From Chrysochromulina tobinii (Eukaryota > Haptophyta > Prymnesiales > Chrysochromulinaceae): a stretch of 23,900 nt of DNA. The stretch is from contig JWZX01002653.1 of NCBI GenBank assembly GCA_001275005.1, forward strand, positions 1-23,900, given 5' to 3'. The notes beneath the pieces are model-generated. The model searched no databases. It was not told the origin of the DNA and worked only from the letters and a program-made list of their open reading frames with translations. The translations under genes were made by a program, and so were the position numbers. Below, piece after piece: positions 4,317 to 23,900 of the stretch (within the stretch, counting starts at the first letter, position 1; each line of letters starts with the position of its first letter).

Positions 4317-4552
4317 GTAGCGCCGCGCCTCGCGGGAGAAAGATGAGGTTAGATTTCCACATTCGTTGTCGGCAGTCGGACTGCCGTCGGCGATGGGTTA
4401 CGTCAATCGTTCTATTTTGGTGAGAGGCTTTGGGGCGACCACCCCTTTCGAAGCAATTATATGCAGTGAACGACTGGTGTAGCCTGGTTTGACCTTAGTT
4501 TGACCAGCTCAAATGGAGAATTGGCTGGAAGGTTTCGGAGAATAGTGGAAAC
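4317..4552. promoter_or_regulatory. Probable bidirectional promoter region (HEAT-like / SET)
   Basis: This spacer of about 240 bp separates the divergent starts of the HEAT-like gene and the SET gene. It is AT-richer than the coding DNA around it (e.g. tctattttggtgag, caattatatgcag). A direct repeat (gtttgacc, ttagtttgacc) sits at 4487-4505. No specific factor site was identified; the promoter role is inferred from position only. Confidence 0.35.
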
Positions 4553-9000: not shown

Positions 9001-10557
9001 CCACCTGATGGCCGCTCTCCGCGCGCAGGAGGAGGTTTGCGTCCCTTACCAACACTGCGCCAACCCAAGCCTACCCAATTGCTCTAAGGGCCACGCGCAC
9101 GTCGACGATTTCTCTCTCTCTCCGCCGCCGCCGCCAGAGGAGGAGGAGGACGATGACAACGACGACGACCACCATCACCACCACCACCACCATGACGATG
9201 ACGGCCGGCCGTCGTCGTCGCCGCCGCCGTCGCCTTCCACCTCGCCGCCGCCCCGCCCCCCCCGCTCGCCCCCGCCCCCGCCCCCCCCCACCCCGGGGTG
9301 TCGGCGGGGCCAGAGTGCTCGACCTGCTCTACCGGCGCGCCCTCGATGCTGTACCGAGCCGCAAGTGCGTACGCCTCACTGATCTCCGCTGCACGCTCCT
9401 GGACTGATCACCCTCCTGGACACGCACCCTCCATCACTGCACGCTCCTGGACTGCGGCTCATTGCCCCTGATCGCCCTGAATCGCCCCTGTGATCTCCGC
9501 CCAAATTGCCGCTGATTGTCCCTGAAATGTCCCTGAAATGTCCCTGATTTTCGCTCTGATGACCTCTGATCACCTCTGATCACCTCTGATGACCTCCCTC
9601 ATCAGGTGCGTACGCCGTCGCTCGGCCGGAGAATGATGACCTCTGATGACCTCTGATGACCTCCCTCATCAGGTGCGTACGCCGTCGCTCGGCCGGAGGA
9701 TGCGGAGGGCATGCAGAGAGAGCTCCTAGTCAATGGACCGATCGTCGTGGCTTTCTACGTCTACTCCGACTTTGCACAGGTGATGAGCGTCGGTTGCCCC
9801 TGATTGCCCCTGATTGCCCCTGATTGCCACTGATTGCCCCTGATTGCCCCTGATTGCCACTGATTGCCACTGATTGCCACTGATTGCCACTGATTGCCCC
9901 TGATTGCACAGGTGATGAGCGTCGGTTGCACCTCCGGCGGCATGCATGCATGCATGGGTCACAGTGCCTCTGAGTGCCTCTGATGACCTCTGATCTCTGA
10001 TGACCGCTATGACCTCTGATGGCCTCGTATCTCCTCGGAGTGCTTAGCATTGCTTCCCGAAACCCGGGATCGCCTCCCCGACTGTGTCGGCATGCTCGGG
10101 TTGTCGTGCGCAGTACAAGGGCGGCGTGTACCGTCGCTCGAAGCAAGCTCAAGGGCCTCTCGGAGGCCACGCGGTCAAGCTCGTCGGCTGGGGGGTTGAG
10201 GACGGGAGACCCTACTGGACTGCGATGAACTCGTGGTCGCCGCTCTGGGGAGATCGAGGTTTCATCAAGATCGCCCGCGGCACGAACGAGTGCGGTATCG
10301 ACGGAGACGCCGGCGGCAGGGATGCCCGGCGAGGTGGTGGCCGCCACACCTCTGACGCCGCCCAAGTAAAATTGGTATCGTACGGCGACGCACGGCGTCT
10401 TGAGGTTCCCGTCCGCGTCCCGCTGTCCTGTGACGAGAATACACGTCATCGTAAGAAATTCCGCAAGACCGAGACGTCATTTGAAGAAAGCGGAGAGGTG
10501 ATTCCGAGCGCTCGCTGCCTCTTGCCGAGGCACCCCTGCTTTTTCAAAAGTCGGTGA
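6083..10557 (+). CDS. Membrane-anchored cathepsin B-like cysteine peptidase (C1A), six exons
   Basis: Proposed exons: 6083-7146, 7257-8130, 8404-8880, 9029-9364, 9673-9779, 10114-10557. Papain-type proteases cut peptide bonds with a Cys/His pair, usually in lysosome-like compartments. Exon 1 has one hydrophobic segment (about residues 45-66, type II anchor or signal anchor) and a region of unknown fold. Exon 2 is acidic and repetitive and ends with a cathepsin B-type propeptide (FVNDPALIAALNAQPDLGWW, then SLLALRR+VLGTLG across the splice). Exon 3 has LPESFDAREEWPEC and NQGDCGSCWAFGAVE with catalytic Cys at 8704-8706. Exon 5 has VNGPIVVAFYVYSDFAQ. Exon 6 has catalytic His (10168-10170), GWGVEDGRPYW and Asn in NSW (10228-10230). 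All joins agree in phase except exon 4, which is one base short: it enters as EEVCVPYQHC but leaves as PECSTC..LYRAAS one frame over, with C homopolymers between. Near the end, a one-base shift around 10310-10322 would give GEVVAATP and stop at 10367-10369. The join of exon 1 to exon 2 rests on phase only. Confidence 0.75.
7147..7256 (+). repeat. Cathepsin-like gene intron 1, TGATGGCCTC decamers
   Basis: Starts gtgattgcgactgatggcg and ends cctcatcag. It contains TGAGTGACAT and TGATGGCCTC units of 10 bp. Exon 1 leaves CG and exon 2 starts with G, making an Arg codon across the junction. Confidence 0.7.
7522..7586 (+). repeat. Perfect 19-bp inverted repeat inside coding exon
   Basis: GATTTGGAAGGTCCCGTTT at 7522-7540 is matched exactly by its reverse complement at 7568-7586 with a 27-bp loop. 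A direct repeat (CCAAATCAGGGCCTGACCTC at 7541 and 7580, 39 bp apart) overlaps it. Both lie in the low-complexity part of cathepsin-like exon 2. Confidence 0.85.
7765..7890 (+). repeat. In-frame 63-bp tandem repeat (two 21-residue units)
   Basis: Units at 7765-7827 and 7828-7890 both encode DPLAAWF followed by an acidic segment (EGDGIDPN / EGDGFDPN). The second unit has diverged. The repeat lies upstream of the propeptide-like segment of the cathepsin-like protein. Confidence 0.8.
8131..8403 (+). repeat. Cathepsin-like gene intron 2 with duplicated acceptor and exon start
   Basis: Donor gtgcgcctc, then TGATGGCCTC-type decamers, then two copies of the acceptor plus the start of exon 3: GTTCTCGGCACGTTGGGCCT begins at 8326 and again at 8404, 78 bp apart. 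The first copy runs into CCTGATTGCC repeats and stops, so the second is the usable acceptor. Confidence 0.8.
8515..8652 (+). repeat. In-frame 69-bp duplication at the pro/mature junction
   Basis: GGCGCCGTGTTGGGCG begins at 8515 and at 8584. Each unit encodes GAVLG-EGPAPLPESFDA, so the segment just before the mature peptidase (LPESFDA, normally present once) occurs twice in frame, 23 residues apart. Confidence 0.85.
8881..9028 (+). repeat. Cathepsin-like gene intron 3, TGATGGCCACC repeats
   Basis: Starts gtgattgcaattgagtgcc, continues with TGAGTGCCAT decamers and 11-bp TGATGGCCACC units, and ends gctctccgcgcgcag. Both ends are phase 0 (GAQ / EEVC). Confidence 0.75.
9365..9672 (+). repeat. Cathepsin-like gene intron 4; donor duplicates exon 5 start, acceptor duplicated
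   Basis: The intron begins GTGCGTACGCC, identical to the first 11 bases of exon 5. GTGCGTACGCCGTCGCTCGG follows an acceptor-like TCATCAG at 9606 and again at 9673 (67 bp apart). The rest is TGATGACCTC, TGATCACCTC and CCCTGAAATGT units. Confidence 0.8.
9780..10113 (+). repeat. Cathepsin-like gene intron 5, TGATTGCCCC/TGATTGCCAC arrays
   Basis: Between SDFAQ and YKGGVY. About a dozen 10-bp units TGATTGCCCC or TGATTGCCAC at 9799-9905 are flanked by two copies of CACAGGTGATGAGCGTCGGT (9775 and 9908). An ATGC run (GCATGCATGCATGCATG) is at 9941-9957, followed by TGATGACCTC units. It ends gtcgtgcgcag. Confidence 0.75.
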
Positions 10558-12967
10558 TGGAGCCATCCAAACCCTCGTCGCGTGCTGCCTACATCCAGCA
10601 GTCGGTGCGTCGCAGCGGCAGACCGCAGCCGTATCTGCAATTGGAAGTGCAGGTCATGAGTGTGGGTAAACCTCCGACGACGACGCTCGACTCGCCGACG
10701 TTCGGCGCGGCGACGGCGATGGCGGGCGCGTCGCTCGAGTCTCCCAGAGTGCCATCAGGGCCCATGGGCGCCCCCTCGGGCCAGCACGTGATGCTGCGCC
10801 GCTCATCGTCGCTCTCGAGCTCGAGCTACGTCGCGCCCACTGTGTCGCTGCCTCCACCCGAAGAGTTTGCCGGGGGGGACACTGATCGCAAAGCTGGTTC
10901 GGCGAGCGAGGCGCCGCGCCGCGAGTCGCTCTCTCCATCGAAACGCTCGCGCCGCGAGAGCGGTGGGGCGGCCTCCGCCTCGTCCACCTCGACCGGCACG
11001 GCGACCGTGCGGGCGGCACCCGATCCGTCACCGTCGCTCGATGAGGCCGAGGAAGAGTCAGTGGAAGGCCTTGGTTCACCCAAGAAGCGGCCTTCCCTTG
11101 GGAAGCGCGAGAGCGGGGCCGCTGTCGCCGAACGAGCCGCCGCCGCGGCCTCCGCACCGCCCTCGATCACCATCGTCGACATGTTCACACCGGGCATGCT
11201 CCGTGTGAACGTCTTCCGCATACCGTCGCTGCTCCCCCTGCCGAGTGGCGTCGTGCTGAGCTTCGCCGAGGCGCGCCCACAACTCGTCGACCACGGCGTG
11301 ATCAACATCGTCATGCGCCGTTCGACAGACGCGGGGCGTACGTGGGGACTTGCGCGGGTGTGCGTCGAGGGCGCCATGGTGGGCGGTGCCGCCAAGTTCA
11401 CAGTGGGCAACCCAACGGCTGTGTATGACAAGTCAGGGCCGCGCCCTCGCCCTCCACATCATCCCTTACCCTGACCTCAGCCTGAGATCATTTATGCCTC
11501 ACCCGACGCCTCATCCTAGTAGGACGACGAAACTGATCGTTGGTCTGATTGCCTCCGATGGCCTCCCTCATCAGGACGACGAAACTGATCGTTGGTCTGA
11601 TTGCCTCCCTCATCAGGACGACGAAACTGATCTGGCTCCTCTTCTGCACGAACCACGCGGCCGACGCCGAGTGGATGATCCACGCGCGCGAGGGGCGTGA
11701 CACGCGCCGAGTGTGGATCACATCCTCCGCTGATGAAGGTGATTGCTGATTACCACTGATGGCTACACGATTTCTAACTGTTGGTTAGTTGATTGCCTAA
11801 TCGATGGCAACTGACCGTGTGTGGATCGCCTCGTCCTCTGATGAAGGACTTCATTGGACCGTCCCTGCGGAGATCACCGCGTCTGTCAAGCTGCCGGGCT
11901 GGACCTGGTACGCGACCGGGCCGGGCGCGGGCATCCAGCTCACATCTGGCCGGCTGCTCATCCCGAGCAATCACGCCGGAGATGTCTACGAGCCGAACTG
12001 CCCCTATTTGGCAAGCACGCAGCGCTCGCGTATGGTGGCCCACGTCATCTACTCGGACGACCATGGGGCCACGTGGCACATCGGCGGCGTGGCGGCGAAG
12101 CACACGAACGAGTGCACGATCTCGCAGCTCGGAGATCGGCGCGTCCTGTTGAACGCGCGCGACTGGTCCGGCCGCTTCCTGCGAGCAGTCCAACTCTCAA
12201 GCGACGATGGCGCGAGCTGGCAAAAGCACCGGTACGGCCACGTGCTCACCACGGCGCTCAATTCGAGCCGGAGCCCGCGCGCTCGCATGCCAAGCGCTCA
12301 CCACGGCGCGACACACCGCCTCCCCACAGGTACGACCGCGAGCTCATTGAGCCGAGGCCGCAGGGGTGTCAGGGCTCGATGCTCTGTGTGCCGCCCCCCG
12401 AGGGGAGGGCAGGGCCGGGCATTCTCTTCTTTTGCAACCCGTCGTCCGACCGCCGCGAGATGCTCACGATCAGGCGCTCCGACGACGGCGGGATGACGTG
12501 GAGTCGATCGTACGCTGATGACTGATGACGCCTGATGATGCCTGATGACGCCTGATGACGCCTGATGACGCCTGATGACGCCTGATGACGCCTGATGACG
12601 CCTGATGACGCCTGATGACGCCTGATGACGATGACGTGGAGTCGATCGTACGCTGATGAGTGCGACTGATGACGCCTGATGACTGCTGAGGACGCCTGAG
12701 GACACCTGAGGACGCCTGAGGACGCCTGATGACACCTGATGACCTCCTTCATCAGGTACTGCCTCGAGGAGGGTCCGAGTGCCTGATGACGCCTGATGAC
12801 ACCTGATGACCTCCTTCATCAGGTACTGCCTCGAGGAGGGTCCGAGTGCGTATTCGTGCCTGGGGCGCACTGCCGACGGAGCGCTCGCATGCCTGTACGA
12901 GCGGGCCGATCGCATCTCGTTCGCCAAGATCCCCTCGCATGTCGACGGCCCCCTTGGCGTCTTCTGA
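10557..12967 (+). CDS. Sialidase (exo-alpha-sialidase, GH33-like), five exons
   Basis: Proposed join(10557..11431, 11617..11738, 11847..12231, 12330..12509, 12823..12967), 568 aa, all phases agreeing. Sialidases release terminal sialic acids (or related nonulosonic acids) from glycans. The first ~200 residues are Ser/Ala/Arg-rich and probably disordered, with no clear signal peptide. The propeller begins at MLRVNVFRIPSLL with the signature FRIP at 220-223 (first Arg of the arginine triad). Five Asp-box-like motifs follow: STDAGRTWG (256-264), SSADEGLHWT (built across a splice), SDDHGATWH, SSDDGASWQ and SDDGGMTWS. IWLLFCTN, GDVYEPNCPYLAS and CQGSML are typical conserved strands. The last exon, YCLEEGPSAYSCLG, carries the GPSAYS segment where the catalytic Tyr lies, and ends LYERADRISFAKIPSH. 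ATG 10557 overlaps the last bases of the in-frame end of the cathepsin-like gene, which supports the earlier cathepsin stop near 10369. Confidence 0.85.
11432..11616 (+). repeat. Sialidase intron 1 with three copies of the exon 2 start
   Basis: Donor gtcagg after AVYD+AA. GACGACGAAACTGATC occurs three times, starting at 11523, 11575 and 11617; each is preceded by AG and the last two by CTCATCAG. Only the third continues into TGGCTCCTCTTC (IWLLF). TGATTGCCTC decamers lie between the copies. Confidence 0.8.
11739..11846 (+). repeat. Sialidase intron 2, flanked by two copies of an Asp-box segment
   Basis: The segment GTGTGGATC..CTC..CTGATGAAG occurs at 11711-11738 (end of exon 2) and 11819-11846 (just before exon 3). 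The cleanest join removes 11739-11846, leaving GATGAAG then GACTTCATTGG (ADEG-LHWT). The upstream copy reads VWITSSADEG and the downstream one VWIASSSDEG. Confidence 0.65.
12232..12329 (+). repeat. Sialidase intron 3, GCTCACCACGGCGC class, acceptor CCCCACAG
   Basis: Starts GTACGGCCACG and exon 4 starts GTACGACCGCG, nearly the same 11 bases. The interior has two copies of GCTCACCACGGCGC (12243 and 12296), the motif that makes the 41-bp array at 22981-23226. The acceptor is ctccccacag. Confidence 0.75.
12510..12822 (+). repeat. Sialidase intron 4, CCTGATGACG array with duplicated donor and acceptor
   Basis: Exon 4 end and donor (ATGACGTGGAGTCGATCGTA) occur at 12493 and 12631, 138 bp apart, with about ten perfect CCTGATGACG decamers between (to 12630). 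The acceptor and exon 5 start (TCATCAG then GTACTGCCTCGAGGAGGGTC) occur at 12756 and 12823, 67 bp apart. Both exon edges are therefore duplicated inside one intron. Confidence 0.85.
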
Positions 12968-14283: not shown

Positions 14284-15906
14284 ATGGAACGCCGTCGTGA
14301 GCGCCCCCGACTTCGGAAACTTATGCTGAGGGCGTTTTCGCTGCTCGTCACGAGCATCCTCTCGAACACGAAGTACGCCTCCGCCGTCGCCGAGCTTTAT
14401 GCAAGCGGCTCCGCGCACGCGGCACCGCAACACCCGGCCACATGCAGCATCTCCGTGATCGACCCCGATCCTGCCTTCAACGTCGGCATCATCAAGCGTG
14501 GTGGCAAGGTCAAGTGGGCCGAGAACAACGTGGAGCGTGCGAGCCGCCACTTCCAGTACGGCTCAGAGTGGTGGGTCCACCGGCGCCTTGCCTCGCTGCC
14601 GGCCGCAAAGGCCACCAATACCAGCCTGGTGCGTGCGACGACGAAAGAGATGGGTTTCGCTCATCATCACACTCTCACGCAAGAAGCGGCGACAACGCGC
14701 GCGCGACGTCTCGCCTTGTGCTCACGGACGTGTTTCCATCCGCCGCTCCGTGCGCAGGCCTTCGTGGCCACCTACTTCTCATACATGCACATCTTCGCGC
14801 CGCACCTGCGCGACCGGGCACTCAAAGCCATCAGCAAGCTCAGCCATGCACGCCAGCACGAGCCGCGCTACATCGTGCCACACACGCACCCGGGCACATG
14901 TGCTCCGCAGACGCGGCACATGGTGCGCATGGTGGTGGACAACGACCTCTGCGGCGACGCACCCATGGACGTGCCCGTGCCCTACGTCGTCTCCTTTCCC
15001 CAGTGGCTTGTCGCGCCACAGATTCCCGAGTACCCACGTACCACGTGGCTCTTCTTCCGGGGCCACCTGCCCAAAACTTACATCGACCGGACGCAGGTGA
15101 GTGCCTCCCTCATTGCATGCTGAGTGCCTCCCGCCCAAATCTTACATCGACCGGACGCAGGTTGAGTGGGCCCACGTAGCGCGCAGCTAACCCTACCCTA
15201 TCCCTCACCCTATCAACGAACCCGAACCCTAACGAACCCTGACGAACCCTAACGAACCCTATCAACGAACCCGTACCTTGTGCAGGTGCGCGCGCGCATC
15301 ATCGAAGTCCTCAAGCACGAGCCGAACGTCTCGGTCGTGCCGGCCAACGTCAAGCCCGGCGCCAAGTACTCGCCTCATGACGAGTACTTGCAACAGATGC
15401 TGCGCGCCAAGTTCTGCTTCGCGCCGCGCGGCGACACCGCGTCCGCGAAGCGATTATACGAGTCGATTGCGGCGGGGTGCATCCCGATCATCATCTCGGA
15501 CAAGCTGAGATTGCCGTACCATCGCCAGATTGATTGGCGCTCCTTCTCTCTGCGGTACACGGAGGCCGAGGTGGCGTCGGACCCTCGCAAGGTACTTAGG
15601 GCCTCCCTCGTTGCATGCTGAGTGCCTCCCTCTATTGCATGCTGAGTACCCCCCTCATTGCATGCTGCTGAGTACCCCCTTCATTGCATGCTTGGTCTCC
15701 CTCTATTGCCTGCTGCTCAGTACCCCCCTCAATGCATGCAGGTGCTGCGCGACGTGCAGGCCATGGCACCCGAGCGAATCGAGGCGCTGCGGAAGGTGGT
15801 GCTCGCGGTGCGCCCTATGTTCTTATGGCACACGGACGACAATCGCAAGAGTGCCGTCGATTACGTCATTCACGATTTGTGCTCGTGGGAGCCCACCTCC
15901 TCATAA
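14284..15906 (+). CDS. Exostosin-family glycosyltransferase (GT47), three exons
   Basis: Proposed join(14284..15096, 15286..15591, 15742..15906), 427 aa, all junctions phase 0. Exostosins are Golgi type II membrane glycosyltransferases that extend cell-wall or heparan-like polysaccharides. A hydrophobic stretch LMLRAFSLLVTSILS near the N-terminus fits a signal anchor. Family features: SEWWVHRRLAS, AFVATYFSYMHIFAPHL, TTWLFFRGHLPKTYIDRTQ+VRARIIEVL across intron 1, then the C-terminal GT47 signature CFAPRGDTASAKRLYESIAAGCIPIIISD (exon 2), and DVQAMAPERIEAL (exon 3). The region 14629-14757 (donor gtgcgt, acceptor gtgcgcag, 129 bp, in frame) reads unlike the family and may be another intron. The frame is also open before 14284, but the ATG in CCCATGG is the better start. 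The stop follows HDLCSWEPTSS at the beginning of a CTCCTC-rich tract, so a further exon cannot be excluded. Confidence 0.8.
15097..15285 (+). repeat. Exostosin intron 1: duplicated exon end/donor and GAACCCTAAC repeats
   Basis: Exon 1 end plus donor (TTACATCGACCGGACGCAGGT) occurs ending at 15096 and again at 15160, 64 bp apart. It is followed at 15189-15275 by CCCTA-type repeats whose clear part is a 10-bp unit GAACCCTAAC/GAACCCTGAC. The acceptor is cttgtgcag. Confidence 0.75.
15592..15741 (+). repeat. Exostosin intron 2, CTCATTGCATGCTGAGTACC repeats
   Basis: Five or so units of about 24-29 bp built on CCTC-ATTGCATGCTGAGTACC. The acceptor itself is the repeat's own ATGCATGCAG. This is the same GCATGC class as the intron at 20257-20400. 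Confidence 0.75.
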
Positions 15907-18518: not shown

Positions 18519-21500
18519 ATGCGTGGCCGGCGTTCGAAGCTCTCCCTGCTCATCTCGACCGCGACGCTGGCTCCCTCCGTTCGCGCCGCGCTTCTGCCGC
18601 ACGTGGCAGGGCTCCGCCGGCAGGCGGCGCTGACCACGCTGCGCCGCGACTTTGCGAGCGCGCCGCCGTGGGAGCGGCCGCCGGATGAGCTGCGAGCTGT
18701 GTGCGACCATCGCACGCGCACGTGCCGGCTCTTCTCCACGTCGCGCAGCGGCGGAGGTCGGACGCGCTCGCCGTCGATGCAAGCGGCTGAGTGCGCCGCT
18801 CCTCCCGCTGAGGAGATGGCCACGCAGTATGCTCCAGCCGAGGTCGAGCAGCGGCTGTACGAGTGGTGGGAGAAGTCGGGCTACTTCCAGCCGGCCAAGG
18901 ACTCGGACCAAGAGTGCTTCGTCATCTCGATGCCACCGCCCAATGTGACGGGCCGTCTGCATATGGGCCATGCCATGTTCGTCGCTCTGGAGGACATCAT
19001 GGCGCGCTTCCAACGCATGCGCGGCCGACCGACCTTGTGGCTGCCTGGCACCGACCACGCGGGCATCGCGACGCAGATGCTCGTGGAGCGCTCGCTGCGG
19101 GCGGATGGCATCGAGCGAAAGGCGCTCGGGCGCGACAAGTTCCTCGAGCGAGTCTGGTCGTGGAAAGAGATGTGATTGCATCCCTCATCAGCCTCTGATA
19201 GCCCATCTGAGTGCGACAGATTGCATCCCTCATCAGCCGCTGATGGCCCATCTGAGTGCGACTGATTGCATCCCTCATCAGGTACGGCGGCGCCATCACG
19301 AGCCAGATCCGCCGGCTCGGCGCCTCGTGCGACTGGTCACGCGAGAAGTTCACGCTGCAGCCCGAGCTCTGTGTGGCGGTGACGGAGGCGTTCGTCACCC
19401 TCCACGAGCGTGGTTTGATCTACAAGGGCAAGCAGCCCCACTCGAGCCGTCTGATGGCGTCTGAGTGCATCTGAGTGCATCTGAGTGCATCTGAGTGCAT
19501 CTGAGTGCATCTGAGTGCATCTGAGTGCATCTGAGTGCATCTGAGTGCATCTGAATGCGTCGGAGTGCGCCTAAGTGCGCCTAAGTGCGCCTGATTGTCC
19601 CGCTGGAGTTATCCGCCTGAGTGTCAATTGCTTCTCTCATCAGGTGAGTACATGGTCAACTGGTCGCCTTCGCTTGGCACCGCGGTCTCCGATCTCGAGG
19701 TTGATTACGTTGAGGAGCAGGGTACGCGCACCTCTGAGGACGTCTGAGTGCGTCTGATTGCGTCTGAGTGCGTCTGATGACCCCTCCGTCCACGTGCACT
19801 CTATGCGCAGGCAAGCTCTACTACTTCAAGTACATGCTCGCCGAACCGGGCACCGAAACCTATGTGGCTGTGGCCACGACACGACCAGAGACGATCCTGG
19901 GCGATGCCGCTGTGTGCGTGCACCCGTCGGATGAGCGCTACAAGCATCTGATCGGCAAGGAGGTGATTGGGTCTGATTGCGTCTGATTGCATCTGATCGG
20001 CAAATATGTGATTGCATCTGATTGCGTCTGATTGCATCTGATTGCGTCTGATCGGCAAATATGTGATTGCATCTGATTGCGTCTGATTGCGTCTGATTGC
20101 ATCTGATTGCGTCTGATTGCGTCTGATTGCGTCTGATTGCATGCCCATGGGCCTCTCTGATTGCATGCTGATGGGGCCGTCCCATGTATTGGCACGCAGG
20201 TGATCGTGCCGATGCTCAACAAACGAATCCCAATCATCGCCGATGAGTACGTGCAGGTACGCGATCGATTGCATGCTGACGGCCCTCCCTGATTGCATGC
20301 TGATGGCCCTCCCTCATGATTGCATGCAGATGGACTTCGGCTCAGGAGCTCTGAAGATAATGATTGCATGCTGATGGCCCTCCCTCATCATTGCATGCAG
20401 ATGGACTTCGGCTCAGGAGCTCTGAAGATCACTCCGGCGCACGACGTGAATGACTACGCGATCGGCAAGCGGCACAACTTGCCCATCATCAACATCATGA
20501 ACAAGGATGCGTCGCTCAATGAGCTGGCCGGCCCTTACGCTGGCCTCGACCGGTACACGAGACAGAGTGCCACTCTGAGTGCCACCCTGATTGCCACTCT
20601 GATTGCCACTCTGATTGCCACTCTGATTGCCACTCTGATTGTGTCTGATTGCGTCTGATTGCGTCTGATTGCCTCGACCGGTACACGAGACAGAGTGCCA
20701 CCCTGATTGCCACTCTGATTGCGTCTGATTGCCACTCTGATTGCGTCTGATTGCGTCTGATTGCGTCTGATGATGCAGGTACGCGGCGCGCGAGCAGCTC
20801 TGGGCTCTGATTGCGTCTGATTGCCACTCTGATTGCGTCTGATTTCGTCTGATTGCGTCTGATTGGGTCTGATGATGCAGGTACGCGGCGCGCGAGCAGC
20901 TCTGGGCGGACATGGGCGCGGCCGGCCTCACCATCAAGGTCGAGGCGCACATGCAGCGCGTGCCACGTTCGGAGCGTTCTGGAGAGGTCATCGAGCCCCT
21001 CGTCTCATCCCAGTGGTTCGTCAAAATGGACGGCATGGCCAAAAAAGGGTGCGACGCCGTGCGCGACGGATCGATTCAAATCATCCCGCAGCGCTTCGAG
21101 AAGGTCTACTTCAACTGGCTCGAGAATATCCAGGTGAGGATGGCCGCTGATGGCCGCTGATGGCCTCTGATTGTCTCGGAATGCCTCTGATGGCCTCTGA
21201 CGGCCTCTGACGACCATTGGCCCGAGACGCTGTTCAGGACTGGTGCATCTCTCGTCAGCTCTGGTGGGGCCATCGCATCCCCGTCTGGTACGCCGACGGC
21301 CATCCGAACAAGTTCTACGTCGCGCGCACCGAGGCGGAGGCGCTCGAGACGGCGCGCGCCGAGTTGGGCGCGGCCGTGACGCTCACGCAGGACGAGGACG
21401 TGCTGGACACGTGGTTCTCGTCGGGGCTGTGGCCCTTCGCCACCGTCGGCTGGCCGGCCAAGGACGCAGCCTCGCTAGCGGAGTTCGAGCGCTTCTACCC

Positions 21501-23791
21501 GTCGTCGGTGATGGAGACGGGCTATGACATCCTCTTCTTTTGGGTCGCGCGCATGGTGCGTGATGACGTCTGACTGCGCGCCTGATTGCGCGCCTGATTG
21601 CGAGCTCCTGATTGCGTGCTCCTGATTGCGTGCTCCTGATTGCCACTGATGACGTCCGATTGGCCGTTGGCAGGTGATGCTCGGGATCGAGTTCACTGGC
21701 AAGCCGCCCTTCCACACAATCTACATGCATGGCCTCGTGCGCGACGGCAATGGGCAGAAGATGTCCAAGACCAAGGGCAACGTCATCGACCCGATCGACA
21801 CGCTCGACGAGTACGGGACAGACGCGCTGCGACTCTCCCTCGTGACTGGATGCACGCCTGGACAGGACATACCGCTTTCGATGGAGAAGGTGATTGCGAC
21901 TGATTGCGACGGATTGCGACGGATTGCGACGGATTGCGACGGATTGCGACGGATTGCGACTGATTGCGACTGATTGCGCTGGCAGGTGATGGCCAACCGC
22001 AACTTTGCCAACAAGCTGTGGAACACCGCGCGCTTCATCGTGATGGGGCTGCAGCCGCTGCCCGAATCAGAGCGTGCGTCCCTCGCGGTGACAGAGCCGA
22101 TGAGTGCGGCGGAGCTCGCCACGCTGCCGCTGCCGGAGCGCTGGGTGCTCTCGCGCTGCCACGTGCTCGTGGGCTCCGTGACCGAGCAGTTGGAGGCGTA
22201 TGACTTCGGGCCGGCCGGGCAAGCCATCTATAGCTTCCTGTGGGATGAGTATGCCGACTGGTACGTCTAAGGGCCCTGATGAGCTCGGATGATCTCTGAT
22301 GGATGATGATCTCGGATAATCTCAGATGCATTATGATCTGATCTCTGATGAGCTCCTCCTGATTGTGCCTCCCAATTCGTCAACCTCCCATCTATCTCCC
22401 AATCTCCCAATTCGTCAACCTCCCATCTATCTCCCAATCTCCCAATTCGTCAACCTCCCATCTATCTCCCACTCTCCCAGGTACATCGAGATCTCAAAGA
22501 GGCGCATCAGCTCGAGCGAGGACCCAGTCGCGGCCCGTCAGGCGCGGCGCACGCTCGTGTACGTCCTCGACACGTGCCTGCGCCTCGGACCCGCCCTGCA
22601 TGCAAGCGCTCACCACGGCGCCCAACCCCCCCTCCTCCCCACAGGTACGTCCTCGACACGTGCCTGCGGCTGCTCCATCCGTTCATGCCCTTCATCACCG
22701 AGGAGCTCTGGCAGCGACTTCCCCACAAGGGCGAGGCACTGATGATCTCGCCGTGGCCCGAGCGCCGTGGCGGCGGCGCTCTTCCCATCGACTACGAGGC
22801 ACTCGCCCTAATTTGGAACCACTGATGACCTTTGAGTGTCCCCAATGATGATTGGCGCTTGATGACCGTTGATTGCGTCCCTCCTCAGGCGCTCGCCCAA
22901 TTTGGATCGCTGCAGGAGCTGACCCGCTCCATCCGCAACGCTCGCGCAGAGTACCGCCCCGAGCCCCTTTGAACCCCGATGTGCCCACCCGGCATGCACG
23001 TGCTCACCACGGCGCCCCGACGTGCCCACCCGGCATGCACGTGCTCACCACGGCGCCCCGATGTGCCCATCCGGCATGCACGTGCTCACCACGGCGCCCC
23101 GATGTGCCCACCCGGCATGCACGTGCTCACCACGGCGCCCCGATGTGCCCACCCGGCATGCACATGCTCACCACGGCGCCCCGGCGTGCCGATCCGGCGC
23201 GGCATGCATGTGCTCACCACGGCGCCCGTTCTTCCCCACAGGTACCGCGTGGAGCCCGCGAAGAAGATCGGCGCGACGGTGCAGGTAGCGGAGGGGCCGC
23301 TCGCGACGGCGCTTGTGGCCGAGGCGGACGCGCTCGCCTTTTTGGCGCGCGTCGACCCAGCGCTCCTAAATTGGGAGCTGACGAAACCCCCCAAGCCGAA
23401 CGGCGCCGTGCCGGGCGCGAGCGAGGTCCTGACGCGCACGCGACTGCGCCGCCGCCTTGCGTCGCTTGGCAAGGCGTGGCCGTACGTGCCAGAGTCGGCG
23501 GCAGAGGCAGCGGCGGCGGCGGCGGCGGCGGGCGCCGCGCCCCATGGGGCGGCCAGGGGCAGCGGCGCCGTCAACGACGACGACGACGACGGCAACAGCG
23601 TGCGGCTCGTCGTCAACGACCAGCTGCAAGCGCTGCTGCCGCTCGCGGACCTGGTCGATGCGGATAAGGAGCGGCAGCGGCTCGGGAAGCAGAAGAGCAC
23701 TCTTGAGGCTTCGATCGCGACGGTCTCCAAGCGGCTCAACTCGCCTGGCTTCAAGGACAAGGCCAAGCCGGAGATTCTCAAAAAGGCGCAG
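18519..23791 (+). CDS. Valyl-tRNA synthetase, 14 exons seen, 3' end outside window
   Basis: Exons: 18519-19171, 19282-19427, 19644-19721, 19811-19962, 20200-20256, 20401-20552, 20881-21133, 21238-21555, 21674-21889, 21986-22260, 22481-22558, 22645-22798, 22889-22950, 23242-23791. They sum to 3144 nt (1048 codons) with every phase agreeing. The enzyme is a class I synthetase charging tRNA-Val. The HIGH motif is HMGH at 148-151 ([13 protein letters not shown]). The connective (editing) domain carries [28 protein letters not shown] and [14 protein letters not shown]. The catalytic core continues with [18 protein letters not shown] and [11 protein letters not shown]. The second signature is KMSKT at 632-636. 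Anticodon-binding helices include [12 protein letters not shown] and [17 protein letters not shown]. The tail [20 protein letters not shown] starts the ValRS C-terminal coiled coil, which leaves the window. The N-terminus (about 100 residues, Arg/Ser-rich, no acidic run) looks like an organellar targeting peptide. An acidic/Ala-rich insert lies in exon 14. Start chosen as the first ATG in frame. Confidence 0.93.
19172..19281 (+). repeat. ValRS intron 1, ATTGCATCCCTCATCAG repeats
   Basis: GTGATTGCATCCCTCATCAG then about 37-bp units TGATGGCCCATCTGAGTGCG + ACTGATTGCATCCCTCATCA. The acceptor CTCATCAG is itself part of the repeat, so three potential AG acceptors occur; the last is followed by exon 2. 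Confidence 0.8.
19428..19643 (+). repeat. ValRS intron 2 (GC-AG), CTGAGTGCAT decamer array
   Basis: The join that preserves the family sequence YKG+EYMVNWSP needs a donor G|GCAAGC, i.e. GC-AG. The interior (19461-19560) has about nine consecutive CTGAGTGCAT decamers, then CTAAGTGCGC units. Acceptor ctctcatcag. Confidence 0.75.
19722..19810 (+). repeat. ValRS intron 3
   Basis: Donor gtacgcg after EEQ+G; units CTGAGTGCGT/CTGATTGCGT of 10 bp; acceptor ctatgcgcag before GCAAGCTCTAC. Confidence 0.8.
19963..20199 (+). repeat. ValRS intron 4, TGATTGCGTC/TGATTGCATC array
   Basis: Starts GTGATTGGG; exon 5 starts GTGATCGTG. The intron holds over a dozen 10-bp TGATTGCRTC units. The phrase TGATCGGCAAATATGTGATT occurs twice (about 19995 and 20049); it resembles the exon 4 end (ATCGGCAAGGAGGTGATTGG), so it is probably a decayed copy of the exon edge and donor. 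Confidence 0.8.
20257..20400 (+). repeat. ValRS intron 5, GCATGC class, duplicated acceptor and exon 6 start
   Basis: Units GATTGCATGCTGATGGCCCTCCCTCAT. ATGGACTTCGGCTCAGGAGC follows a TGCATGCAG acceptor at 20330 and again at 20401, 71 bp apart. The first copy runs into ATAATGATTGCATGCTGA (stop). Confidence 0.85.
20553..20880 (+). repeat. ValRS intron 6, donor and acceptor both duplicated
   Basis: The exon 6 end with its donor (CCTCGACCGGTACACGAGAC) is at 20543 and 20672 (129 bp apart). The acceptor with the exon 7 start (GATGCAG then GTACGCGGCGCGCGAGCAGC) is at 20779 and 20881 (102 bp apart). Units are 12-bp TCTGATTGCCAC and 10-bp TGATTGCGTC. Confidence 0.85.
21134..21237 (+). repeat. ValRS intron 7, TGATGGCCGC/TGATGGCCTC units
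   Basis: Donor gtgaggatggcc, decamers of TGATGGCCKC type, acceptor cgctgttcag. Phase 0 between NIQ and DWC. Confidence 0.75.
21556..21673 (+). repeat. ValRS intron 8, TGATTGCGTGCTCC units
   Basis: Donor gtgcgtgatg, exon 9 starts gtgatgctc. Units TGATTGCGCGCC (12 bp) and TGATTGCGTGCTCC (14 bp); acceptor ccgttggcag. Confidence 0.75.
21890..21985 (+). repeat. ValRS intron 9, ATTGCGACGG decamer array
   Basis: GTGATTGCGACT then about eight units of GATTGCGACG/GATTGCGACT (10 bp) filling almost the whole 96-bp intron; acceptor gctggcag. Exon 10 starts GTGATGGCC. Confidence 0.8.
22261..22480 (+). repeat. ValRS intron 10, with 35-bp pyrimidine-rich tandem repeat
   Basis: Donor GTACGTC and exon 11 start GTACATC. 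After TGATGATCTC-type units come three copies of a 35-bp unit starting CCCAATTCGTCAACCTCCCA at 22371, 22406 and 22441, the last running into the acceptor tctcccag. This gives a polypyrimidine tract of about 100 bp. Confidence 0.8.
22559..22644 (+). repeat. ValRS intron 11, first ~24 bases copy the exon 12 start
   Basis: Intron start and exon 12 start share GTACGTCCTCGACACGTGCC plus TGCG, 86 bp apart. The interior has GCATGCAAGCGCTCACCACGGCGC, the class seen at 12232-12329. Acceptor cctccccacag. Confidence 0.85.
22799..22888 (+). repeat. ValRS intron 12 (GC-AG), start copies exon 13 start
   Basis: Exon 12 ends DYE. The intron would begin GCACTCGCCCTAATTTGG and exon 13 begins GCGCTCGCCCAATTTGG, near-identical 17-mers 90 bp apart. 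No GT donor gives the family-consistent DYE+[14 protein letters not shown], so a GC donor is inferred. Confidence 0.75.
22951..23241 (+). repeat. ValRS intron 13, six 41-bp minisatellite units
   Basis: Donor GTACCGCCCCGAGCCC versus exon 14 start GTACCGCGTGGAGCCC. Six units of exactly 41 bp start at 22981, 23022, 23063, 23104, 23145 and 23186, each GTGCCCACCCGGCATGCACG + TGCTCACCACGGCGCCCCGA with small changes. Acceptor cttccccacag. Confidence 0.9.
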
Positions 23792-23854
23792 GTGGGCTTG
23801 ATTGCGACTGATTGCGACTGATTGCCAAACCGGAGAATCTCAAAAAGGCGCAGG
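23768..23854 (+). repeat. Duplicated ValRS exon 14 end plus donor
   Basis: CCGGAGATTCTCAAAAAGGC with GCAG|GTGGGC occurs at 23768-23791 and, with one change, at 23830-23853, 62 bp apart and separated by TGATTGCGAC decamers. Either copy could serve as donor; the frame from exon 14 runs through the first. Confidence 0.8.
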
Positions 23855-23900
23855 TGGGCCTGCCTCATGGACTCTTTGGAAGGCCCCTCCCCCCCAACAC

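Follow-up and report, generated by a model that had tools for sequence, protein, structure and literature searches.

Genes and introns of the window

The window analysed here, i.e. the whole stretch of 23,900 nucleotides (nt) from Chrysochromulina tobinii, is one entire contig (JWZX01002653.1, C1497) of a eukaryotic assembly of 53 Mb in 2,253 contigs, and its GC content is 0.55-0.69 in 1-kb steps. A gene for valyl-tRNA synthetase (ValRS) fills the 3' third and continues past the contig end; the other genes code for a papain-type protease (“cathepsin-like”), a sialidase-like BNR protein and a sulfotransferase. Several introns of these genes begin with a copy of the beginning of the following exon, and between the two copies lies a short filler. 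One such filler, which we call E1, recurs hundreds of times in the genome. We consider it probable that these introns are made by a short dispersed cassette which is inserted into exons and duplicates a long target of variable length (~20-50 nt).

The 14 ValRS introns were spliced by hand, and the resulting protein matches the ValRS of Thermus (1gax) with an E value of 2.4e-202. Joins 1-13 lie in the aligned part and show no indel at the join; join 14 lies beyond the end of the protein query aligned to 1gax. Introns 2 (19428) and 12 (22799) appear to be of the GC-AG type. A preliminary description of this DNA stated that most exons after an intron begin with GT, and this is the case for 17 of 23 in the window.

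The start of each of 23 introns was scored against the start of the next exon with 506 mismatched pairs as the control; the introns of the minus-strand sulfotransferase gene were kept outside this test. A score of at least 10 was obtained for five of the 23 true pairs and for none of the 506 shuffled ones (permutation p=0.0002). The five are ValRS introns 11 and 13, the cathepsin introns at 9365 and 9780 and the sialidase intron at 12232. The preliminary description had reported near copies of the next exon at the start of ValRS introns 11, 12 and 13, which we find again with 24 exact bases (26/27 in all), ~21/26 with gaps and 13/16, respectively, and a match of 11 bases in the cathepsin intron at 9365, which is exact (11/11). 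ValRS intron 12 has an ungapped score of 9 because of indels; its copy matches at 12/15 positions ungapped, and the longer match was made by eye with two indels. The copies in the cathepsin intron at 9780, the sialidase intron and ValRS intron 14 had been missed.

The same description also took short matches such as GTGAT and GTAC as a signal of duplication. This did not hold, since the 16 introns which remain when ValRS introns 11-14, the cathepsin introns at 9365 and 9780 and the sialidase intron at 12232 are taken from the 23 do not rise above shuffling (p=0.10). From the comparison with the shuffled pairs it follows that the long copies are real and that the short ones are what the donor consensus yields.

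ValRS intron 14 is the only intron in the window with a repeat that spans the exon end and the donor (AG|GT), and it is the window case nearest to the classical AGGT model; filler separates the copies there too. The repeat in ValRS intron 5 is a secondary duplication which lengthens the intron. The positions of all these features are collected in Table 1.

Table 1. Positions of genes, introns, repeat copies and fillers in the window
Feature	Position	Strand	Description
Sulfotransferase frame, PF00685	1978-2778	minus	Pfam match
Cathepsin-like gene intron	9365..9672	+	First 11 nt (11/11) copied at 9606 and at exon start 9673; E2 filler
Cathepsin-like gene intron	9780..9911	+	First 18 nt exact (21/22) = exon start at 9912; E2 filler adjoins copy
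Sialidase intron	12232..12329	+	Two E1 cores, at 12242 (exact) and at 12294 (one mismatch); 14/17 donor-side copy of exon start 12330
ValRS intron 5	20257..20400	+	40-nt copies of intron end + exon start at 20319, 20390
ValRS intron 6	20553..20880	+	Secondary duplications of exon-intron border (20543/20671) and intron-exon border (20765/20867)
ValRS intron 11	22559-22644	+	Starts with copy of following exon's start
ValRS intron 11, first 27 nt	22559..22585	+	Copy of next exon start, 26/27 (24 exact bases); source of donor GTACGT
E1 cassette, ValRS intron 11	22598..22644	+	GCATGCAAGCGCTCACCACGGCGCC, then pyrimidine tract, then TCCCCACAG
ValRS intron 11 repeat, second copy	22645..22671	+	Beginning of exon after intron 11
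ValRS intron 12 (GC-AG)	22799-22888	+	Starts with decayed copy of following exon's start
ValRS intron 12, first 26 nt	22799..22824	+	Decayed copy; then TGATGACC-type (E2) filler up to 22888
ValRS intron 12 repeat, second copy	22889..22912	+	Beginning of exon after intron 12
ValRS intron 13	22951-23241	+	Starts with copy of following exon's start
ValRS intron 13, first 16 nt	22951..22966	+	Copy of next exon start, 13/16
E1 tandem array, ValRS intron 13	22974..23241	+	Six cores, mostly 41 nt spacing; end = TTCCCCACAG
ValRS intron 13 repeat, second copy	23242..23257	+	Beginning of exon after intron 13
ValRS intron 14 (23792-23853) region	23768..23862	+	33-nt near-identical copies 23768-23800, 23830-23862; E2 filler between

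The host gene of the introns at 15097 and 15592 gave no Pfam match in the one piece scanned (14301-15179), and in an Rfam scan of the window no match reached the gathering threshold. A second ValRS in the genome (G000:C2095:34935-38375, L001) is intron-free over residues 273-1039 of the window ValRS, across which the window gene has eleven introns (3-13), a striking inequality between genes of like function. The second ValRS is only 35% identical to the first and is therefore too distant to reveal an empty site.

A dispersed cassette at the acceptor side

E1 is a filler of ~40 nt between the copies and consists of GCATGCAAGTGCTCACCACGGCGCC, a stretch of pyrimidines and CCCCACAG. An E1-like string is also present in the sialidase intron, and in ValRS intron 13 it is amplified as 41-nt tandem units. 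On a sampled contig (L014) it parts two 44-nt copies (9354 and 9439) which differ by one mismatch. A 25-mer from E1 has 616 exact copies in the genome and the reversed control has none; the 16-nt core has 912. CACAG follows the core within 4-30 nt in 583 of the 912 copies and is extended to CACAGGT in 487, so that GT comes directly after the CACAG of the cassette in 84% (487/583), against a chance expectation of one in 16. The 3' end is CCCCACAG in most of the copies listed, with no A-rich or simple-repeat tail, and no terminal inverted repeats were seen by eye (GCATGC... versus ...CCACAG). The core copies with their unrelated flanks show that similar introns are numerous in this genome and lie in unrelated genes, as is expected of introners. 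CTCAC inside E1 is a likely branch site. The reverse strand of E1 contains GTGAGC, a possible donor, and antisense copies might therefore also make introns.

A sample of E1 places was studied across the genome. It comprises 64 of the first 67 listed (C8:8024, C114:3992 and C114:4067 were left out) in 60 stretches, four close pairs being merged. An acceptor is present in 54 of the 60 stretches, and the removal of two duplicates leaves 52 distinct E1 introns. For each of these the 110 nt upstream of E1 were compared with the exon start after the acceptor. A donor-side copy was found at a score of at least 10 in 37 of the 52, against 13 of 2,652 shuffled pairs, and at a score of at least 15 in 25 against none. 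The excess over shuffled pairs, which the preliminary description had proposed as a check, is thus present both in the window and in this sample.

The anatomy of these introns is a repeat copy which starts at the donor, the shared filler, whose end is the acceptor, and then the second copy as the start of the exon, with AG|GT at the junction. The gapless repeats are 10-45 nt long (median 23, n=37) and variable in length, and the exon begins with GT in 29 of the 37 loci. The span from donor to E1 has a median of 40 nt in the 37; when L042, L052, L081 and L085 are set aside it ranges from 24 to 50 nt and the nominal intron length from 63 to 92 nt (without the additional E1 copy present in L038 and L076). 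Among 28 GT or GC donors there is a G at -1 in 22, an A at -2 in 14 and a G at +5 in 21. The repeat stops at GCATGC or one base earlier in L032, L034, L036, L040 and L054, so that the introns of these five loci are made up of exon copy in the 5' half and of E1 in the 3' half.

The same four loci were dropped from the 37 in tests of the joined exons and of the exon ends, which leaves 33. In 29 of the 33 loci the joined exons have one or more open frames; for DNA that is short and GC-rich this is weak evidence. The joined exons of L032 restore HCQQGVSRSASLVIAYVM (HCQQGVSRSASLVIAYVMW), which we take to be the loop of a dual-specificity phosphatase. The identity over the donor-to-E1 span declines evenly from 97% to 65% among the 33 loci, which is the graded series of apparent ages noted in the preliminary description. 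The intron end does not copy the end of the upstream exon in 32 of the 33 loci, nor does it in ValRS introns 11-13. Such a copy is present in L037 and in ValRS intron 14; L037 looks as if it were nested inside an older E1 intron.

Several observations concern the way in which the cassette spreads. The flanks of L032 and L089 are unrelated, and the 40 nt of E1 plus tract inside them are identical; the tract therefore moves together with E1. Core and tract are also shared by L092 and L093, which lie at different sites at a distance of 2.2 kb, and L092 is without the GCATGCAA start; in L093 the copies are identical over ~36 nt and E1 was apparently inserted exactly at the CAG|GT of an existing intron. 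The 5' end of E1 is truncated or extended in L092, L097 and L098, and there are extra bases between the exact repeat and the cassette in L049 (15) and L083 (14). Neighbouring E1s were compared in 98 listed rows of the CACAG-followed set, two duplicates on C235 being left out. A tract similarity of at least 0.85 was found in 9 of 58 neighbouring pairs (same contig, 150-5,000 nt apart) against 119 of 4,668 distant ones (permutation p=0.0002 for the count and p=0.0098 for the mean similarity). The C90 pair is a tandem duplicate; in the pairs on C396, C395, C191 and C97 the repeats look different by eye.

Some E1 sequences stand somewhat apart. In L080, L084 and L085 the cores lie between repeats of ~30-35 nt without the CACAG end. 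E1 upstream of GT was also found on one metagenome contig of a viral collection (L088, IMGVR_UViG_3300027760_000958). Its last ~300 bases resemble the intron-rich sequence of this eukaryote and the remainder is bacterial or phage-like by eye; the contig is probably a chimera and gives a hint of an environment which holds the organism or a relative.

A second filler, E2, consists of arrays of TGATTGC/TGATGACC-like units and is found in many introns. In the window plus 200 kb there are 64 arrays, of which 44 are usable with an acceptor. A donor-side copy accompanies 16 of the 44, against 17 of 1,565 shuffled pairs, and lies at most 5 nt from the array in 14 of the 16. E1 is joined with E2-like sequence in L097 and L098. 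DNA searches gave 1,145 candidate places at first look for the ValRS region and 2,014 for L014, of which ~40 each were scored, and most of the matches listed were arrays. The arrays occur in 8 of 21 sampled sequences, namely in 7 of 20 arbitrarily placed 10-kb stretches (L008-L027) and in the window; with regard to this unevenness the assembly may mix organisms or contain intron-poor regions. In the viral collection the E2 pattern was seen on two contigs (L105 and L106), as a 10-nt repeat which looks unrelated.

Two further places in the window have a similar appearance. Beside the sulfotransferase frame, at 1581-1816 on the minus strand, there are three exact 46-nt copies with E2-like filler between them, i.e. 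repeat, filler and repeat on the other strand. At 15187-15290 the intron filler is made of ACGAACCCT-type repeats and is preceded by a duplicated exon end (15077/15141); the GACGAACCCT repeats in L088 (~4406-4446) resemble this type of filler.

Models for the origin of the introns

The model which we prefer hypothesizes that E1 is inserted into an exon with duplication of the target. The cassette would bring a likely branch site, a pyrimidine tract and an acceptor, since it ends with CCCCACAG. For a target with GT at its start (often GTRCG, with G or AG before it), the first copy would become the donor and the entire 5' half of the intron, and E1 would become the 3' half of an intron of nominally 63-92 nt. 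The second copy of the target would restore the exon, and the mRNA would therefore be unchanged. The copying step could be repair of a staggered break or template switching from a nearby cassette, and later lengthening of the intron could come from tandem amplification and from renewed insertion at the same AG|GT. We weakly favour repair or template switching over a cut-and-paste transposase because of the variable repeat length, the extra bases, the ragged 5' and clean 3' ends and the neighbours which share a cassette variant. Insertion with target duplication, and gain as the direction of the change, are what the arrangement of the sequences suggests.

A number of observations weigh against this model. 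No repeat at a score of at least 10 was found in 15 of the 52 E1 introns, 6 of the 60 sampled stretches have no acceptor after E1 and fall outside the simple scheme, and the four loci set aside above (L042, L052, L081 and L085) align oddly. That the E1 introns are spliced is something we infer from their sequence, and this status has to be counted on the same side. The evidence from E2 is softer, for this is low-complexity sequence, and the 16 copies include some that are second copies within one intron. Among unanchored direct repeats in the window plus 200 kb (at least 13 nt, 45-900 apart) AG before the second copy is not enriched (9 and 7 against controls of 7 and 11, among 128 pairs kept out of 757). 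It should be noted that this set mixes coding repeats, repeats from stretches without such introns and border-spanning duplications; the result counts against a claim that direct repeats in this genome are generally linked to introns. A search for the empty site of L061 gave only the match to itself; little can be learnt from it, since the empty site is identical in sequence to exon 1 followed by the first copy of the repeat. No intron-less alleles or strains were found among the scored places of the DNA searches with the ValRS region and L014, and an alignment of L014 paralogues showed no clear gain or loss of an intron. The preference for GT and the span of 24-50 nt may reflect selection for introns which are spliceable and long enough, and not the chemistry of insertion. 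Finally, the RVT_1 genes in the genome leave a retroelement route open.

This route is the main rival for the copying step. It postulates that E1 RNA is inserted by a reverse transcriptase in a target-primed, retrotransposition-like manner, which would give long duplications of variable length and an insert that is precise at its 3' end and ragged at its 5' end. The variable repeats, the clean CAG end, the extra bases beside the exact repeats of L049 (15) and L083 (14) and the truncated or extended 5' ends in L092, L097 and L098 agree with this, as do the reverse transcriptase genes of the genome (26 RVT_1 matches, 22 above the cut-off). We nevertheless regard the route as unlikely: an A-rich tail is absent, E1 is just ~40 nt long, the variants shared by neighbours point to local copying, and the clean 3' end may merely reflect selection for splicing. 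The likeness to non-LTR retroelements (LINE/SINE type) lies in the variable target duplications; it does not extend to their A-rich or simple-repeat 3' tail.

A further model takes E1 for a very short non-autonomous DNA transposon, i.e. an introner of the ordinary kind, mobilized by a transposase. Elements of the cut-and-paste type usually spread locally. The family is dispersed and genic, and its donor is co-opted from the duplicated target, as is described for introners of Symbiodinium in the available part of that work (PMC9860276). The gapless repeats of 10-45 nt are variable in length, whereas 3-9 bp are given there for the introners described earlier, and E1 has no terminal inverted repeats by eye, which makes this model distinctly unlikely.

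The preliminary description had preferred the model of Rogers, in which plain tandem duplication of a coding segment containing AGGT provides one AGGT as donor and one as acceptor, with copied exon as the intron, whose 3' end should then repeat the end of the upstream exon. The direct repeats at the donor and the downstream exon, the repeat of ValRS intron 14 which crosses AG|GT and the donors with AG in front of them (15 of the 37 E1 loci with a repeat) are all in its favour. Against it, dispersed filler separates the copies, even in ValRS intron 14, the upstream exon end is uncopied at the intron end in the loci mentioned above (32/33), and 487 of the 583 cassette acceptors directly precede GT. 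For the E1 introns the model is largely refuted by the filler and the absent exon-end copy, and we find it very improbable. The earlier interpretation is thus partly supported, in that intron gain with a donor from a duplicated coding segment stands, and the observation behind it is partly confirmed; the plain tandem copy does not stand, for the exon end is left uncopied, in ValRS introns 11-13 as well, and the acceptor is supplied by the cassette.

An assembly artefact or collapsed repeats could account for stretches which are exactly identical on some contigs (L043/L066, L044/L067, L090/L091), but it is hardly credible in view of the graded divergence of the copies, the different flanks among loci and the metagenome contig from another assembly with E1 before GT. 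As a separate matter, the stretches fetched from C101/C235 and C65/C498 are identical with the same flanks, and C114/C1238 gave equal matches in the search with the ValRS region; these three contig pairs are duplicate contigs or very similar haplotypes. The splice-site consensus could by itself create a likeness between intron and exon starts. This explanation suffices for the GTGAT and GTAC matches of the 16 window introns; it is refuted for the long repeats by the shuffled pairs, which retain the consensus and fall short of the observed scores, and we give it almost no weight.

Known systems and implications

Introners are the closest known kind of element. According to the available passages of the survey of 3,325 genomes by Gozashti et al. 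(2022, PMC9860276), their target duplications are 3-9 bp, the element may co-opt a donor from the duplication, and 72 of 177 families have terminal inverted repeats. E1 is like them in being a dispersed intron-making family in genes, with an element that carries the acceptor and a donor that may be co-opted. It is unlike them in that the spans of 24-50 nt form the 5' half of the intron. In the same survey the start of similarity had to lie no more than 5 exonic or 10 intronic bases from each end of the intron, and families of low complexity were discarded. The similarity among E1 introns is confined to the 3' half, the 5' half being a locus-specific exon copy in 37 of 52, and as the methods are described in these passages, the rule about both ends would drop E1 introns from the survey. 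Its low-complexity filter would probably drop the E2 introns.

Intron gain at staggered breaks in Daphnia, as the consulted part of the report gives it, involves repeats of 4-12 bp (PMC4202315). The end of the adjacent exon is directly repeated at the far end of the new intron there as here, but the repeats here are longer and the filler is one recurring cassette, whereas the filler in Daphnia is assorted DNA. In the potato RdRp gene the duplicated segment comprises an intron 3' end and an exon start, and a cryptic GT in the exon copy serves as the donor (PMC4974935, as far as covered). The final anatomy is the same, and it resembles the border duplications in ValRS introns 5 and 6; the difference is that the potato gene received the acceptor half of a neighbouring intron as a tandem copy, and that the cassette here recurs hundreds of times inside apparent exons. 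The survey by Rogers and Bendich of 213 introns of several classes found direct repeats with a mean of 11.4 bp (4-30) (PMC11782384). These also lie at or near both borders, and unlike the E1 case no common filler family is given in the passages covered. The repeats reported for Amoebophrya are 3-5 nt in the part of the source consulted. Among the open-licence PMC papers listed, no title or abstract opening describes introns in which the 3' half is shared and the 5' half is a target duplication; this does not prove that none has been published.

A more specific form of the model, which we put forward tentatively as a possibility, is the spread of half-introns. Staggered breaks would receive a copy of a ~40-nt acceptor cassette without transposon ends, often taken from a neighbouring position or from the gene itself, and the long fill-in duplication of the break would make the other half of the intron. 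If this is true, what drives this proliferation of introns is not a transposase but repair templated by DNA (or nascent RNA). Half of each such intron is unique, and the spread of half-introns would therefore be invisible to screens which require similarity at both ends. Since one end of the intron is locus-specific, there is a definite ground on which an entire class could have escaped the published introner survey. The question of intron gain is old and still open, and few cases have been dated. This one genome seems to hold hundreds of gains at all stages of decay, many with the target readable in duplicate, and the readable targets make it possible to measure how donors arise, which targets are chosen, how short an intron can be and how repeats decay.

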